Part shown: positions 25,229 to 33,401 of the stretch, piece after piece
Position numbering within the stretch: position 1 is the stretch's first letter
Layout of the letters: each line of letters opens with the position of its first letter
Assembly (NCBI GenBank): GCA_021820665.1
Contig: JAKADK010000007.1
Span: 1 to 64,000 of the forward strand
Length of the DNA: 64,000 nucleotides
From: Actinomycetes bacterium
Lineage (GTDB): Bacteria; Actinomycetota; Acidimicrobiia; Acidimicrobiales; RAAP-2
Reading direction: 5' to 3'
Made by a program: the position numbers and the translations under genes
The notes under the pieces: generated by a model
What the model saw: the letters and a program-made list of their open reading frames with translations, nothing else
The model's database searches: none
What the model was told of the DNA's origin: nothing

Positions 25229-27048
25229 GCCGGCAGTCCCGGGAACGTCGGGAGCCTCGGCGGACCGGCGTCCGGCGGCGGGGCGAAGGGGGCCGTCCCG
25301 TCCGGCGCCGCGGGGCGGTCGCGCTCCCGTCGGTCGTCGCCGGGGTCGGCATGGCCTTGTCCCTGCCCCCGTGGGGGTTCTGGGTCCTGGCCTTCCCGGC
25401 CGCCGGGCTGCTCTTCTGGCGGCTGGACGGGCTGCCGGCCCGGACGCGGTTGTGGGCCGGCTGGTGCGCAGGACTGGGCCTCTTCGCCCTCGGGCTCATG
25501 TGGGCCCAGGCGTTCACGCTCGTCGGAGCCATCGTGCTCATCGCCGTCGAGGCGCTCTTCCCGGCGCTCGGTTGCCTGTTCACACCCCGTAACGGTCCCG
25601 TGCGTCGGGCGCTCGCCTTCCCGGCCGCCATGACCTTGTCGGCAGCAGGTCGGATGCGCTGGCCCTTCGGTGGCCTCCCACTCGGGGGGGTGTTCCTGGG
25701 CCAGGCGGACGGACCGGTGCTCAACGTGGCCCGCCTCGGTGGACCGCTGCTCCTCACCGCCGTGGTGTTCGTCGGCGGGGTTGCCGTCGCCGCTCTGGTG
25801 GAGGTCATGGTCTACGGGGGACGGCTGCGACGGGTGCGTGCCGGTGCCGGTGCCGGTGCTGCCTCGGCCGCCGACGGGGCGGAGTCCTCTCCGCCCGCAC
25901 CGGAGCAGCCGGGCAGTGCTCCGCGGGGTTCTCCTGCCGGAGCGCGGACGCGGCTCCTGGTCGGTGGCGTCGCCCTGGCGGTCGTGATCGCGGCGACGGT
26001 CGGCGGCGCCGTCGGTCCGGACGGGGGTCCGGCGCGCGGCGTCCTCACGGCGGCGGCAATCCAGGGGGGCGGCAAGCGGGGCCTTTCAAAGGAGCAGGTC
26101 AACCCGGCCACGGTGTACGCGGCCCAGCTGGCGGCCACCGCCGAGATGCAGCGGTTGGACCACGGTCACGCTCCCCAGATGGTGCTGTGGCCAGAAGACG
26201 TCGTCTCGCTCTCCCACCCACTGGCCGGGTCCCATGCCGAGCGAGCGCTGGGCGCGCTGGCCAGGCGACTGCACACCACCCTCATCGCCGGCGTCACCGC
26301 CACGGTGTCGTCCACACACTTCCGCAACGAGGCTGTGGCGTGGGGACCGAACGGCGCCGAGGTGGCGCACTACGAGAAGGTCCACCGTGTCCCCTTCGGC
26401 GAGTACATCCCCTACCGGGGGTTCTTCAAGCACATCGCCAACCTCTCGAAAGTGCCCCTCAACGCCATCCCCGGGCACAAGAGCGGCCTCCTGCGGACGC
26501 CGGCCGGCCCGATCGGCACCATGATCTCCTTCGAGGTGTTCTTCGCCGACCGGGGACGCTCCGCGGTACGCGCCGGGGCCGATGTCCTCATCCTGCCGAC
26601 GAACACGTCGTCCTACGCGAACGCCCAGGTCCCCACCCAGGAGGTTGCCGCCTCGGAGATCCAGGCGGTGGAGGAGGGCCGGAACCTGCTCCAGGCCGCC
26701 CCCACCGGCTACAGCGCCGTCATCTCGAACCGCGGCGCGCTGCTCCAGCGATCGGTGCTCGGCCGGCGCCAGGTCCTCTTCGCCGACCTTCCCCGCCGCA
26801 CCGGTCTGACCCTCTACGTGCGCTACGGCGACGTTCCGGTCTTCGCCCTGGCCGTCCTCGCCCTCCTTCTCGGGTGGGCGGCGGGCCTCGGCCGGCGGCA
26901 GGGGCGGCGACGTCACGGCAGACGGCAGCAGCTGCGGCAGGAGCCGGGTGCCGACAAGGCCCGGGAGGCGCCGACGGAGACGGCGGGCGAGCGGCACCCG
27001 CTCCCGGTCGCCGGCGGGCAGGTCGGTCAGACCCGTGCTCAGCCGTAG
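25225..27048 (+). CDS. lnt: Apolipoprotein N-acyltransferase homologue with Ser in place of the catalytic Cys
   Basis: A 607-residue membrane enzyme: about six N-terminal helices, a low-complexity insert (near 205-250), a nitrilase domain (about 275-525) and a final helix. Lnt N-acylates the lipobox cysteine of lipoproteins. The Glu324 (LWPEDVV) and Lys385 (YEKVHRVPFGEY) counterparts of E. coli Glu267 and Lys335 are present, as is the following Glu in PFGEY. The nucleophile Cys387 position, normally ICYE, reads ISFE (Ser435). Activity may be altered or lost. ATG at 25225 overlaps the hemY TGA. The 3' end overlaps the convergent HAD gene by ten bases. Confidence 0.88.
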   Translation: MSRQSRERREPRRTGVRRRGEGGRPVRRRGAVALPSVVAGVGMALSLPPWGFWVLAFPAAGLLFWRLDGLPARTRLWAGWCAGLGLFALGLMWAQAFTLVGAIVLIAVEALFPALGCLFTPRNGPVRRALAFPAAMTLSAAGRMRWPFGGLPLGGVFLGQADGPVLNVARLGGPLLLTAVVFVGGVAVAALVEVMVYGGRLRRVRAGAGAGAASAADGAESSPPAPEQPGSAPRGSPAGARTRLLVGGVALAVVIAATVGGAVGPDGGPARGVLTAAAIQGGGKRGLSKEQVNPATVYAAQLAATAEMQRLDHGHAPQMVLWPEDVVSLSHPLAGSHAERALGALARRLHTTLIAGVTATVSSTHFRNEAVAWGPNGAEVAHYEKVHRVPFGEYIPYRGFFKHIANLSKVPLNAIPGHKSGLLRTPAGPIGTMISFEVFFADRGRSAVRAGADVLILPTNTSSYANAQVPTQEVAASEIQAVEEGRNLLQAAPTGYSAVISNRGALLQRSVLGRRQVLFADLPRRTGLTLYVRYGDVPVFALAVLALLLGWAAGLGRRQGRRRHGRRQQLRQEPGADKAREAPTETAGERHPLPVAGGQVGQTRAQP

Positions 27049-27536
27049 TAGCCGGAGTGGATATAGACACAGGGGATCCCCTCCCGCCGGAACATCTCGG
27101 CGTTGTCCGGGTCGTCCTCGAATGCCAGGCGAAGGTCGAAGCCCCAGGCCCGCAGGTCGTCGACCACGTCCCGCTTGAACGACGTCACCTGGGCGTAGTC
27201 CCCGCGGGACCGCATGACGAGCAGATCCCAGCGCAGGCCGTAGCGCTCCAGCCAAGCATGGGTCTGGGACTGCACCCGGATCGGGCGGCCGGTGAGCAGC
27301 ACGATCTGGAGGTCACGGTCGAGGAAGTGCAGGAGATGGACGACCTCCTCGATCACCGGGTCCTCACCGCACGACTCGAAGAACCGGTCCCAGTCCCTCC
27401 GCCCCCGCTCGATGTAGTGCTGGCGTCCGGCCGCGTCCGAGAGGACCCCGTCCACGTCGAAGACGACCGCCTCACCGGGGACGTCGAGGGGGCCGGCTCG
27501 CCACAGCCAGTTCAGGGGCGAGGAGAGGGCAGTCAC
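27039..27536 (-). CDS. HAD-family phosphatase-like protein (polynucleotide 3'-phosphatase-like)
   Basis: A 165-residue single-domain HAD protein. Motif I is VVFDVDGVL (Asp nucleophile and acid/base Asp). Motif II is LLTGRP, the Lys region is TSFKRDVV, and motif IV is [11 protein letters not shown]. The short cap and overall length resemble the phosphatase half of polynucleotide kinase-phosphatase, and the similarly built stand-alone domains found in actinobacteria and phages. The substrate is unknown. GTG 27536 overlaps the acs stop (GTGA), so it is translated with acetyl-CoA synthetase. Confidence 0.8.
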
Positions 27537-29718: not shown

Positions 29719-32700
29719 GTGACGACACCCCAGCCGACGGCGGACGAGGCCAGTGGAGACCGGTCCGAGCCGAGGCGGGACCTGCGGCAGGACGCCGGCC
29801 CGGGCCGACCGGGTGCCTGCGCCCAGGAGCCCGGGGTGCCGACCATCGAAGTCCCCATCGGCCGGAGGGTCATGGCGGTCTGCGACCTGCTCCTCACTCC
29901 CGAGGCGACACCTTCCTCGACGGCGCTCACCAACCGGCTCGCCGAGGTGCTGGAGGCATGGGACGGCCCCGGCCTCCTCGTCGTGGCCGGGAACCTGTTC
30001 GACCTGACCGGAACCGACGACCCGGGCTCGGCCGCCCGCGGAGCCCTCCGGGCCCATCCCCGGCTGGAGCGAGCCCTCCTCCATTTCCTCGAGGACCGGG
30101 ACCGCCGGGTGGTCCACCAGGCCGGGACCCACGAGCCCAGCGAGGACTCGCCCGCAGGCCCGTCCTGCGTCCTGGCCGAGCTGGGGATCGAGTGCACCGG
30201 ACCGATCGACCTGGCCCTGTCGACACCGACGGGTACCCGCGTGGTGCGGATCGAACCGGGGCCGGACGCCTACGGCTCCGGGCGACCCTGCAGCGCGGCC
30301 GAGACCGACCTCGACCCGGCGGCGGACTCGAAGCCAGGGGCGGTCACCGAGGCCCGGGCGGCGCGCTCGTGGCACTCCCTCGCGGCGCGCTCGTCAACCG
30401 ACGCGCCGTGGCTCGCCGGCATCGACCGCCTGACCGACCCGTCGGCGCTGTCCCGCTTCGTCACCTCCAGGACGCTCTACCGGCGCATCGGTCGGCACGC
30501 CTGGTGGCTCCTCGTGCCGTTCGCCGTCGCCGCTCTCGCTCACGTGGCGATCACCCCGACGATCCTCCACCACGTCGCCCACGGCCGCCTGAGGCGGACC
30601 TTGCGCACCGTCTCCACCGCCGACTGGGAGGACCGGCTCAACGTGGCCGCCATCGTGGCCGTGGCCGTCCTGGCCACGATGGCCGTCGTCCTCGGCCTGT
30701 TGAGCCGGCGCCTGTGGGCGGTCCTTGGCGGCGGCACCCTCACCACGGTGACGGAGGCTGGGACGGCCAACGACGCGGCCCGGGACCGGGCCAGGACGCT
30801 CCTCGGCAAGGGCTACTCGGGGCTGATCACGGCGGCGACCTTCCAGCCCGAGCTGACCAACCTCGGGGCCGGGTTCTTCGCCAACATCGGGCCCACCGCC
30901 GAGGTGGTCGAAGAGCACCGGGGGCGGCTCGGGCTCCCTCCGGTGTTCCTCCACAGCCGGCGCCTGAGCTGGATCGAGCTGGAGACCGGCGCCGACCTCC
31001 ACGCCCGGCTTCTCCTCGCCTGGAGAGATCTCCGCTCGCCCAGCATCGCCGAGCGGGTAGTGGCCCGACGGCGCCCGGTGCGGGACCTCCATCCCACGGT
31101 GGTGGCGTCGTACCCGATGGGCGACTCGTGGCCACCGGCGCCCGACCTGCGGCGTGCCCATCGCCACACCCGGCGGGTCCGCCGGGTGGCGGCGGCAGCC
31201 ATCCTCGCCGCCGGGCTCCTCGACCTCCTCGACGCCGTGATCCCTCCGCTGCGGAACCAGCTCAACCTGGTGCTCCAGCTCTTGCCGCTCCGTGCCACCG
31301 AGGCAGCCGGTGCCCTCGTCGCCGTCGGCGGGCTCGCCCTCGTCGCCCTCGGGCGCGGCATCCTGCGCGGCCAGCGCCGCGCCTGGCGTGTCTCGGTGGC
31401 CCTCCTCGTCGCCACCGTCGCCCTCCACCTGGTAGCGGGCGCCGACGTGGACGAGTCGGTCCTCGCCCTCGTGGTCCTCACCATCCTGGTGGTCAACCGC
31501 CGGGAGTTCCAGGCCGCCTCCGACTGGGCGTCGGTCCGCTCCGCCGTGGTGTTCATGGTAAGCGGCGTGGTCGGGATCACGCTCCTCGCCAGCTCCTCGA
31601 TCGAGCTCGTCACGCATCTCCGGTATCCCCATACCCACCTCGCGTGGGGCACCGCCGTGTGGGCGTCGGCCGAGCGACTGGTCGGTGTGGACACCATCGC
31701 CCTCCCCGTCAGGCTCGACCGGTTCCTCTCCCCTGCCCTCCTCGCGCTCGGCCTGGCCCTCGTGGGCCTGGCCCTCTTCCTCCTGTCGAGACCGGTCGTG
31801 GACCGGCGGCTGACATCCGGACGGGCCGCCGAGTACCGGGCTCGGGACATCGTCCGGCGGCACGGCGCGTCCACCCTCGACTACTTCGCGCTGCGCTCGG
31901 ACAAGCGCTGGTTCTTCCACCGGGACAGCCTCGTCGCCTACGCGATCTACGGGGGGATCTGCCTCATCTCGCCCGACCCCATCGGACCCGTGAACGAGCG
32001 GGAGCAGGTGTGGGGAGCGTTCCGCCGCTTCGCCGACGGCCACGGGTGGATCCCTGCCGTGATGGGGGCCGGCGAGGACTGGCAGCCCATCTACCGGGCC
32101 TCGGGCATGCACAACATCTACATCGGCGACGAGGCGGTGGTCGACGTCCAGGGCTTCTCGCTGGCCGGTGGGGATCGCAAGAGCCTCCGCCAGGCCCACA
32201 ACCGGATCCAGAAGAAGGGGTACACGGCGGAGTTCCTCGACCCGGCCCGTCTCGACCCCGACCTTGCCCGCCAGCTCACCGACCTCATGGGCCTCAGCCG
32301 ACGCGGTGAGCACGAGCGCGGCTTCTCCATGATGCTCGGCCGGGTGTTCGACCCGCGGGACACCGGCCTGCTGCTCACCGTGGTGCGCGACGCCGACGGG
32401 AAGCCGGCGGCGATGTGCCAGTTCGTGCCGGCGCCCGGGATCGCCGGCTACTCCCTCGACCTCATGCGCCGTGACCCCGGAGAGCATCCCAACGGCCTGC
32501 TCGACTTCGCCCTGTGCTCCACCATCGAGCACCTCCGGGAGAACGGCTTCCGTGGGCTCAGCCTCAACTTCGCGGCGTTGCGCTCCACCCTGGACGGCGA
32601 GAAGGGCGACGGCCCCGTCCAACGAGCCGAGCGGTGGCTCCTCAAGCGGATGTCGAGCTTCGTGCAGATCGAGACGCTGTGGCGGTTCAATGCCAAGTAC

Positions 32701-32973
32701 GACCCCGACTGGCTGCCGCGCTATGTCGTCTTCGACACGGCCGAACATCTGGTGCCGGTGCTGGTGGCGATCGTCCGGGCCGAGTCCCTCTGGGAGGTCC
32801 CCGGGATCGGCAGGCTCCTAGCCGCCGGAGCCGAACGCCGCATGGAGGCCGCCCGCCTCGAGACCGAGCTGGCTCGGACCGAGCTGGGCACCGCCGGAGA
32901 TCCGATCGCCGGGCCGGCTGGCGCCGACACGTCCGGCGTCGAAGAGGACGGGACCGTGCCGACTGCCCGCTGA
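29719..32973 (+). CDS. Degenerate membrane metallophosphoesterase fused to an MprF-type lipid aminoacyltransferase
   Basis: 1084 residues. Residues about 45-460 follow the order of an actinobacterial membrane metallophosphoesterase interrupted by two helices (about 259-277 and 310-335). Its metal motifs are lost: DxH is DLL (56-58), GDxxE is GNLFD (91-95), GNHD is GTHE (136-139) and GHTH is AATF (372-375). About six helices follow (490-690). Residues about 705-1040 are a DUF2156 domain (DYFALRSDKRWFF, YIGDEAVVDVQGFSLAGGDRKSLRQAHNR) like the MprF/LysX catalytic part. MprF moves Lys or Ala from aminoacyl-tRNA to phosphatidylglycerol, giving cationic lipid and resistance to antimicrobial peptides. 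No tRNA synthetase domain is attached. The aminoacyl specificity and the role of the front domain are unknown. Confidence 0.85.
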   Translation: MTTPQPTADEASGDRSEPRRDLRQDAGPGRPGACAQEPGVPTIEVPIGRRVMAVCDLLLTPEATPSSTALTNRLAEVLEAWDGPGLLVVAGNLFDLTGTDDPGSAARGALRAHPRLERALLHFLEDRDRRVVHQAGTHEPSEDSPAGPSCVLAELGIECTGPIDLALSTPTGTRVVRIEPGPDAYGSGRPCSAAETDLDPAADSKPGAVTEARAARSWHSLAARSSTDAPWLAGIDRLTDPSALSRFVTSRTLYRRIGRHAWWLLVPFAVAALAHVAITPTILHHVAHGRLRRTLRTVSTADWEDRLNVAAIVAVAVLATMAVVLGLLSRRLWAVLGGGTLTTVTEAGTANDAARDRARTLLGKGYSGLITAATFQPELTNLGAGFFANIGPTAEVVEEHRGRLGLPPVFLHSRRLSWIELETGADLHARLLLAWRDLRSPSIAERVVARRRPVRDLHPTVVASYPMGDSWPPAPDLRRAHRHTRRVRRVAAAAILAAGLLDLLDAVIPPLRNQLNLVLQLLPLRATEAAGALVAVGGLALVALGRGILRGQRRAWRVSVALLVATVALHLVAGADVDESVLALVVLTILVVNRREFQAASDWASVRSAVVFMVSGVVGITLLASSSIELVTHLRYPHTHLAWGTAVWASAERLVGVDTIALPVRLDRFLSPALLALGLALVGLALFLLSRPVVDRRLTSGRAAEYRARDIVRRHGASTLDYFALRSDKRWFFHRDSLVAYAIYGGICLISPDPIGPVNEREQVWGAFRRFADGHGWIPAVMGAGEDWQPIYRASGMHNIYIGDEAVVDVQGFSLAGGDRKSLRQAHNRIQKKGYTAEFLDPARLDPDLARQLTDLMGLSRRGEHERGFSMMLGRVFDPRDTGLLLTVVRDADGKPAAMCQFVPAPGIAGYSLDLMRRDPGEHPNGLLDFALCSTIEHLRENGFRGLSLNFAALRSTLDGEKGDGPVQRAERWLLKRMSSFVQIETLWRFNAKYDPDWLPRYVVFDTAEHLVPVLVAIVRAESLWEVPGIGRLLAAGAERRMEAARLETELARTELGTAGDPIAGPAGADTSGVEEDGTVPTAR

Positions 32974-33065: not shown

Positions 33066-33401
33066 TCAGCCCCCGAGGTGCCGGGATGAGCGATGCCGAC
33101 GGGCGCCGGAGGCGTCCCCGCCCAGGCCGCTCCGATGCCGGCTCCACCACAGGACCAGGCGGTCGAGGACCCCGCCGACGATCGCCGTCACGAGGAGCAC
33201 CCAGATCAACCGCACGTGGGCGTCGAAGAGCACGAAGCTCACCGCCACCGCTTCGCTGTTCTTCAGGACGAACGCCACCAGTGCCGCCAGGAGGACCAGC
33301 GCCACCACTGCCCGGAGGACGTCACGCCGCTCCCGGGATCCCCGGCCCGGCCCCGGCGCCGGGGGCGGCGAGGAGGGGACCGTGTTGTGGAGCTCCGTCA
33401 T
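33066..33401 (-). CDS. Small LapA-domain membrane protein
   Basis: 111 residues: a Pro-rich cytoplasmic N-terminus, a first helix (about 29-45), the NSEAVAVSFVLFDAHVRL segment, a second helix (about 64-85), then a basic tail. The two-helix hairpin with FVLKNSEAVAVSFVLF is typical of LapA/DUF1049 proteins, which help assemble or anchor envelope complexes in other bacteria. ATG at 33401 follows AGAGGTGAGG. It lies 68 bp downstream of nuoN on the same strand and could be the last gene of that transcript. Confidence 0.75.
   Translation of the reverse strand: MTELHNTVPSSPPPAPGPGRGSRERRDVLRAVVALVLLAALVAFVLKNSEAVAVSFVLFDAHVRLIWVLLVTAIVGGVLDRLVLWWSRHRSGLGGDASGARRHRSSRHLGG

Follow-up and report, generated by a model that had tools for sequence, protein, structure and literature searches.

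The window, a stretch of 64,000 nucleotides from an Acidimicrobiales contig (JAKADK010000007.1), carries a long gene predicted to encode a phosphoesterase-like front domain, interrupted by a membrane hairpin and followed by a membrane-bound lipid-modifying transferase. Its features are as follows.

29719..32973, + strand: whole gene, 1084 amino acids, with a GTG start and a stop codon ending at 32973
29842..30486, + strand: N-terminal half of the phosphoesterase-like domain, residues 42-256 (AF2 model, pLDDT 85.3; LpxH, Z 16)
29884..29892, + strand: motif I remnant DLL, D56-L58, DxH in intact relatives (alignment, conservation)
29989..30003, + strand: motif II remnant GNLFD, residues 91-95, GDxxD/E in intact relatives (alignment, conservation)
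30124..30135, + strand: motif III remnant GTHE, residues 136-139, GNHD in intact relatives (alignment, conservation)
30253..30261, + strand: motif IV remnant EPG, HG in intact relatives, with His replaced by Pro at P180 (alignments, conservation)
30487..30723, + strand: transmembrane hairpin within the domain, residues 257-335 (model helices 241-286 and 303-335; hydropathy peaks 264-282 and 309-327)
30772..31113, + strand: C-terminal half of the phosphoesterase-like domain, residues 352-465 (predicted models)
30832..30843, + strand: motif V remnant AATF, residues 372-375, GHTH in intact relatives (alignment, conservation)
31147..31785, + strand: six transmembrane helices of the synthase, residues 477-689 (six hydropathy peaks; helices of the full-length model; phmmer matches to MprF structures from residue 490)
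31849..32730, + strand: LPG_synthase_C/DUF2156, a GNAT-type aminoacyl-tRNA:lipid transferase, residues 711-1004 (Pfam, 7.5e-70; A-PGS and L-PGS in the PDB)

The preliminary description of this locus had proposed that a degenerate metallophosphoesterase and an MprF-type transferase form one chain. This was borne out by the single 1084-residue open reading frame and by orthologues that are collinear with the window protein throughout the family, including one from the same genus that is 88% identical over the full length. Homologues were present in 38 of 61 related genomes. The start codon of the fused gene is uncertain, as residues 1-40 are poorly conserved.

The C-terminal part was readily assigned. 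Pfam identified LPG_synthase_C, the DUF2156 catalytic domain named in the preliminary description, at residues 711-1004 with 235.8 bits against a cut-off of 27.5, covering profile positions 3-297 of 298; the sole other Pfam match was a weak one to the lysyl-tRNA synthetase membrane region (residues 484-644). Six hydropathy peaks between residues 490 and 688 precede the transferase domain, and these helices correspond to the final ones in the membrane part of MprF. Over about 550 columns, the full-length model (pLDDT 80.7) resembled MprF of P. aeruginosa and of Rhizobium, and it also matched the isolated A-PGS and L-PGS domains. A C-terminal LPG_synthase_C domain behind at least six membrane helices places the protein among the aminoacyl-lipid synthases of the PF09924 superfamily, and the six helices followed by a GNAT-type transferase are the layout with which LysX and AlaDAGS function (PMC10580965); six membrane helices are enough for synthesis in the MprF/LysX superfamily (PMC8974105). 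Unlike MprF, the window protein yielded no Pfam match to the flippase domain LPG_synthase_TM (PF03706), and the model for bifunctional MprF scored 247.5 bits against a cut-off of 600, aligning only from profile position 322. Unlike LysX, it has no LysRS domain, and the LysX model reached 303.9 of the required 742 bits over only positions 10-579 of 1102. None of these enzymes has the phosphoesterase-fold domain, with a membrane hairpin of its own, that stands at the N-terminus here. The product is most likely aminoacyl-phosphatidylglycerol or aminoacyl-diacylglycerol; in Corynebacterium, the lipid made by LysX is lysyl-diacylglycerol and not lysyl-phosphatidylglycerol (PMC10580965). Given two membrane helices in the hairpin and six in the synthase, both soluble domains would be expected to lie on the same side of the membrane, presumably the cytosolic one.

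We then considered the front domain. Pfam found no phosphoesterase domain in the window protein, whereas it does find one in the intact relatives. An AF2 model of residues 36-470, built with a 61-sequence alignment of the window domain and those of related loci, reached a pLDDT of 85.3 and a pTM of 0.85. Its closest PDB folds by VIA-align were structures of LpxH (UDP-2,3-diacylglucosamine hydrolase; Z 15-16, rmsd 3-5 A over about 190-210 residues), which also headed the Foldseek list with a probability of 1.00, followed at Z 13-14 by YfcE, archaeal DP1, DNA polymerase B-subunits and VPS29. VPS29 and the polymerase B-subunits are known inactive members of the fold. The match covers both flanks of the hairpin. 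Residues ~42-465 are thus predicted to adopt the calcineurin-like phosphoesterase fold, in agreement with what the preliminary description had expected of a structure prediction. The hairpin itself, two helices at about residues 257-335 between motifs IV and V, had been overlooked there; the N-terminal half runs up to it in a conserved juxtamembrane motif, F-x2-SR-x2-YRR (residues 247-256).

In LpxH, too, motifs IV and V are separated by an insertion, the lid. The insertion here is a membrane hairpin, however, and the window member lacks the metal site. A profile of the intact members also gave LpxH as the best solved structure (E 0.0003), with VPS29 listed as well. Even the intact relatives are nevertheless far from LpxH at the family level, the best scoring 23.8 bits against a model cut-off of 134, and the LpxH model was absent among the family-model matches listed for the window protein.

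Alignment to intact relatives established the state of the active site. The preliminary description had listed four damaged motifs (DLL, GNLFD, GTHE and AATF), all of which stood as stated; it had missed a fifth, as the HGxxxD of motif IV reads PGPDAY in the window protein, so that all five motifs are broken. Asp56 and the motif III histidine, His138, are the only two of the eight key residues left, and the ligand set of an active metallophosphoesterase (DxH, GDxx, GNHD, H and GHxH) is lacking. The front domain is predicted to be catalytically dead, most of its metal ligands having been lost. Because the loss is common to orthologues across the family, a sequencing error is ruled out as its cause. 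Could the domain still be an enzyme, with altered metal use or a different chemistry? The two remaining ligands, together with the GH of motif V that partly eroded relatives retain, would be compatible with this, but both motif V histidines and the motif IV histidine are gone along with damage to every motif, and the substitutes are not conserved; we consider residual catalysis very improbable.

To place this loss among the relatives, we aligned 137 domains, comprising 25 standalone proteins (the count after removal of five fusion fragments) and 112 fusions. The same architecture occurs beyond the window, as the preliminary description had suggested should be searched for, and it is mostly dead: at least seven of the eight key residues are kept in only 10 of the 112 fusions. 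All eight are kept in 25 of 25 standalone relatives, a set found with an intact query in which dead standalone proteins could be under-sampled. Some genomes (G012 and G026) encode a dead and an intact fusion together. Searched with the domain of an intact relative, 109 of 397 genomes from the order, spanning 70 genera, and 50 of 396 from the phylum had matches. A scan of named-species genomes gave 354 relatives; the best 80 of these came nearly all from metagenome-assembled genomes and were labeled mostly Acidimicrobiales, Acidimicrobiaceae or Actinomycetes, with one Acidiferrimicrobium sp. IK, whose fusion (L252) is partly eroded.

Standalone proteins such as L031, L077, L079-L100, L102 and L181 form a family of 450-500-residue phosphoesterases with all metal ligands intact and a membrane hairpin inserted before GHTH. 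The three of them scanned against NCBIfam (L077, L079 and L181) matched no model above its cut-off. Two apparent cases of separate, adjacent phosphoesterase and synthase genes, L155 (G196) and L148 (G272), were rejected as evolutionary intermediates, as each is a fused gene split by a frameshift; an assembly error or real decay is possible in both.

A domain tree computed with the motif columns removed placed the window protein within a dead clade of 79 rows (SH-aLRT 98), with the intact fusions and standalone proteins basal. Parsimony required five changes of state on this tree, at least three of which are forced by well-supported branches. The synthase-domain tree again placed the intact fusions at the base; above them stands a dead clade, here of 93 rows (98). 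It is thus well supported computationally that the active site was lost in parallel in several related lineages of Acidimicrobiales. Nested within the 93-row clade are also lineages that have lost the N-terminal half of the domain (L127, L136, L141 and L177) or the whole front domain (L038, L040 and L041), so that the synthase can manage without the domain there. Two further fusions, L142 and L175, have a dead domain that is strongly diverged and has grown to about 516 residues; its branch is very long, at 1.46 changes per column.

The absence of the whole domain from L038, L040 and L041 also bears on an idea raised in the preliminary description, that the domain stands in for the flippase region. 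In such a case, the hairpin and dead domain would help the product across the membrane as the flippase half of MprF does, and the domain does precede the six synthase helices, the flippase position in MprF. But in LysX and AlaDAGS, which have no flippase, the membrane part consists of only six helices with the transferase (PMC8974105, PMC10580965), the genome has three separate LPG_synthase_TM (PF03706) genes besides its one PF09924 gene, and the domain is homologous to a standalone, LpxH-like phosphoesterase. We give this idea little credence.

If the domain were a relic with no present function beyond folding, on its way to being lost altogether, the nested deletions would be readily understood. 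We examined selection by pairwise dN/dS (NG86) in eight pairs. The dead domain gave values of 0.11-0.26, with 0.217 for the window protein and its nearest relative, and the synthase part of the same pairs gave 0.04-0.17; in most close pairs, the dead domain evolves faster, by up to about 2.5 times in dN/dS, as would also befit a relic. By comparison, the N-terminal tail is unconstrained (dN/dS 1.1 in the pair of the window protein and L002). Purifying selection still acts on the dead domain, and this, its occurrence in 70 genera of one order sample and the high conservation of particular structural and juxtamembrane residues make a mere relic a rather doubtful explanation.

The conservation profile of 93 dead domains located these residues. 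Positions G91, G136, G391, R251, Y254 and R446 are conserved in at least 92% of them; the 92-100% class comprises the fold glycines (G91, G136 and G391), the juxtamembrane F-x2-SR-x2-YR motif and R446. The metal-ligand positions, by contrast, fall from the top 1-7% in intact domains to the 22nd-95th percentile in dead ones (N3 95th, H3 66th, H5a 66th and H5b 72nd), and most are conserved no better than an average position. Dead members lack the ligands by definition; what is informative is the poor conservation of most of the replacements as well. Motif II is the exception, with Asn for Asp in about 70%, by weight, of the dead domains. Poorly conserved ligand positions, together with conserved glycines and a conserved juxtamembrane motif, indicate that constraint has shifted from the metal pocket to the fold and the membrane contact.

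The same profile bears on the possibility that the dead domain is a sensor, binding a lipid head group or nucleotide in the old pocket or beside the hairpin and thereby regulating the synthase. The ancestor-like fold is that of LpxH, in which lipid is bound at a membrane-facing lid, the hairpin likewise lies between motifs IV and V, and the fold has been kept under purifying selection. However, what stands at the metal positions varies among the dead members, as the percentiles above indicate, and the replacements differ from lineage to lineage, which makes a conserved ligand site in the old metal pocket unlikely, though a ligand could still bind elsewhere. We regard a sensor as improbable, although worth bearing in mind. 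We would put forward only tentatively, too, a history in which a membrane-embedded lipid phosphoesterase once acted in the pathway of the synthase, perhaps as a source of the synthase's lipid acceptor or in the turnover of that acceptor, and was repeatedly turned after fusion into a lipid-binding regulatory subunit. If this were true, the family would offer a natural series from active enzyme through pseudoenzyme to domain loss in one architecture.

We favor, with a probability of roughly 0.55, the explanation that the pseudo-phosphoesterase has been retained as a membrane-anchored part of the aminoacyl-lipid synthase with no catalytic activity of its own. The gene product would be an aminoacyl-tRNA-dependent modifier of membrane lipids, acting through six helices and a cytosolic GNAT-type transferase. 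An ancestral, active membrane phosphoesterase would have been joined to the synthase in Actinomycetota; its two-metal site would then have been lost repeatedly in Acidimicrobiales, with the fold and membrane contacts staying under selection. The front domain may now be a rigid membrane-anchored module without any chemistry of its own, which holds the synthase in position at the cytosolic face or stabilizes it there. Such a scaffold or anchoring role is proposed by analogy with VPS29 and the polymerase B-subunits. VPS29 of retromer is a phosphoesterase fold serving as a non-enzymatic, rigid scaffold (PMC3101248); unlike the domain described here, it is eukaryotic, soluble, still metal-binding and not fused to a lipid enzyme. 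The B-subunits, too, are phosphoesterase partners of another enzyme: archaeal DP1 is active, and its eukaryotic relatives have been inactivated (PMC7544198). They are, however, separate subunits of a DNA polymerase, not parts of a membrane lipid enzyme. That catalytic residues were lost in several lineages while the fold was kept suggests an enzyme turned structural part in soil and peat Acidimicrobiales.

A full-text literature search of open-licence papers found no report of a phosphoesterase-MprF fusion. The superfamily is known; the domain architecture, which adds to the MprF/LysX superfamily, and the pseudoenzyme appear to be new. One tree holds the domain in an intact, partly eroded, dead, half-deleted or absent state, which allows us to ask when and why a fused enzyme domain becomes a pseudoenzyme. 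The fusion also points to an unnamed family of standalone, membrane-hairpin, LpxH-like phosphoesterases in Actinomycetota, the substrate of which may give a clue to what first linked the two partners.

Near the fused genes of related loci, we found no operon partner that would name a pathway; the recurrent neighbors were housekeeping genes and one HAD phosphatase. The latter, a small protein encoded on the reverse strand at positions 27039-27536 of the window, resembles the polynucleotide-kinase phosphatase domain (PF25109, 5e-15), and its homologues, recognized by BLAST only, recur close to the fused gene in 62 of the related loci. An apolipoprotein N-acyltransferase (LNT_N plus CN_hydrolase) is encoded on the forward strand at 25252-27048; the fused gene thus lies near another cell-envelope lipid enzyme. 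On its other side, at 33066-33401 on the reverse strand and convergent with it, is a gene for a small membrane protein that weakly resembles the LapA domain (25.1 bits, the cut-off being 28).
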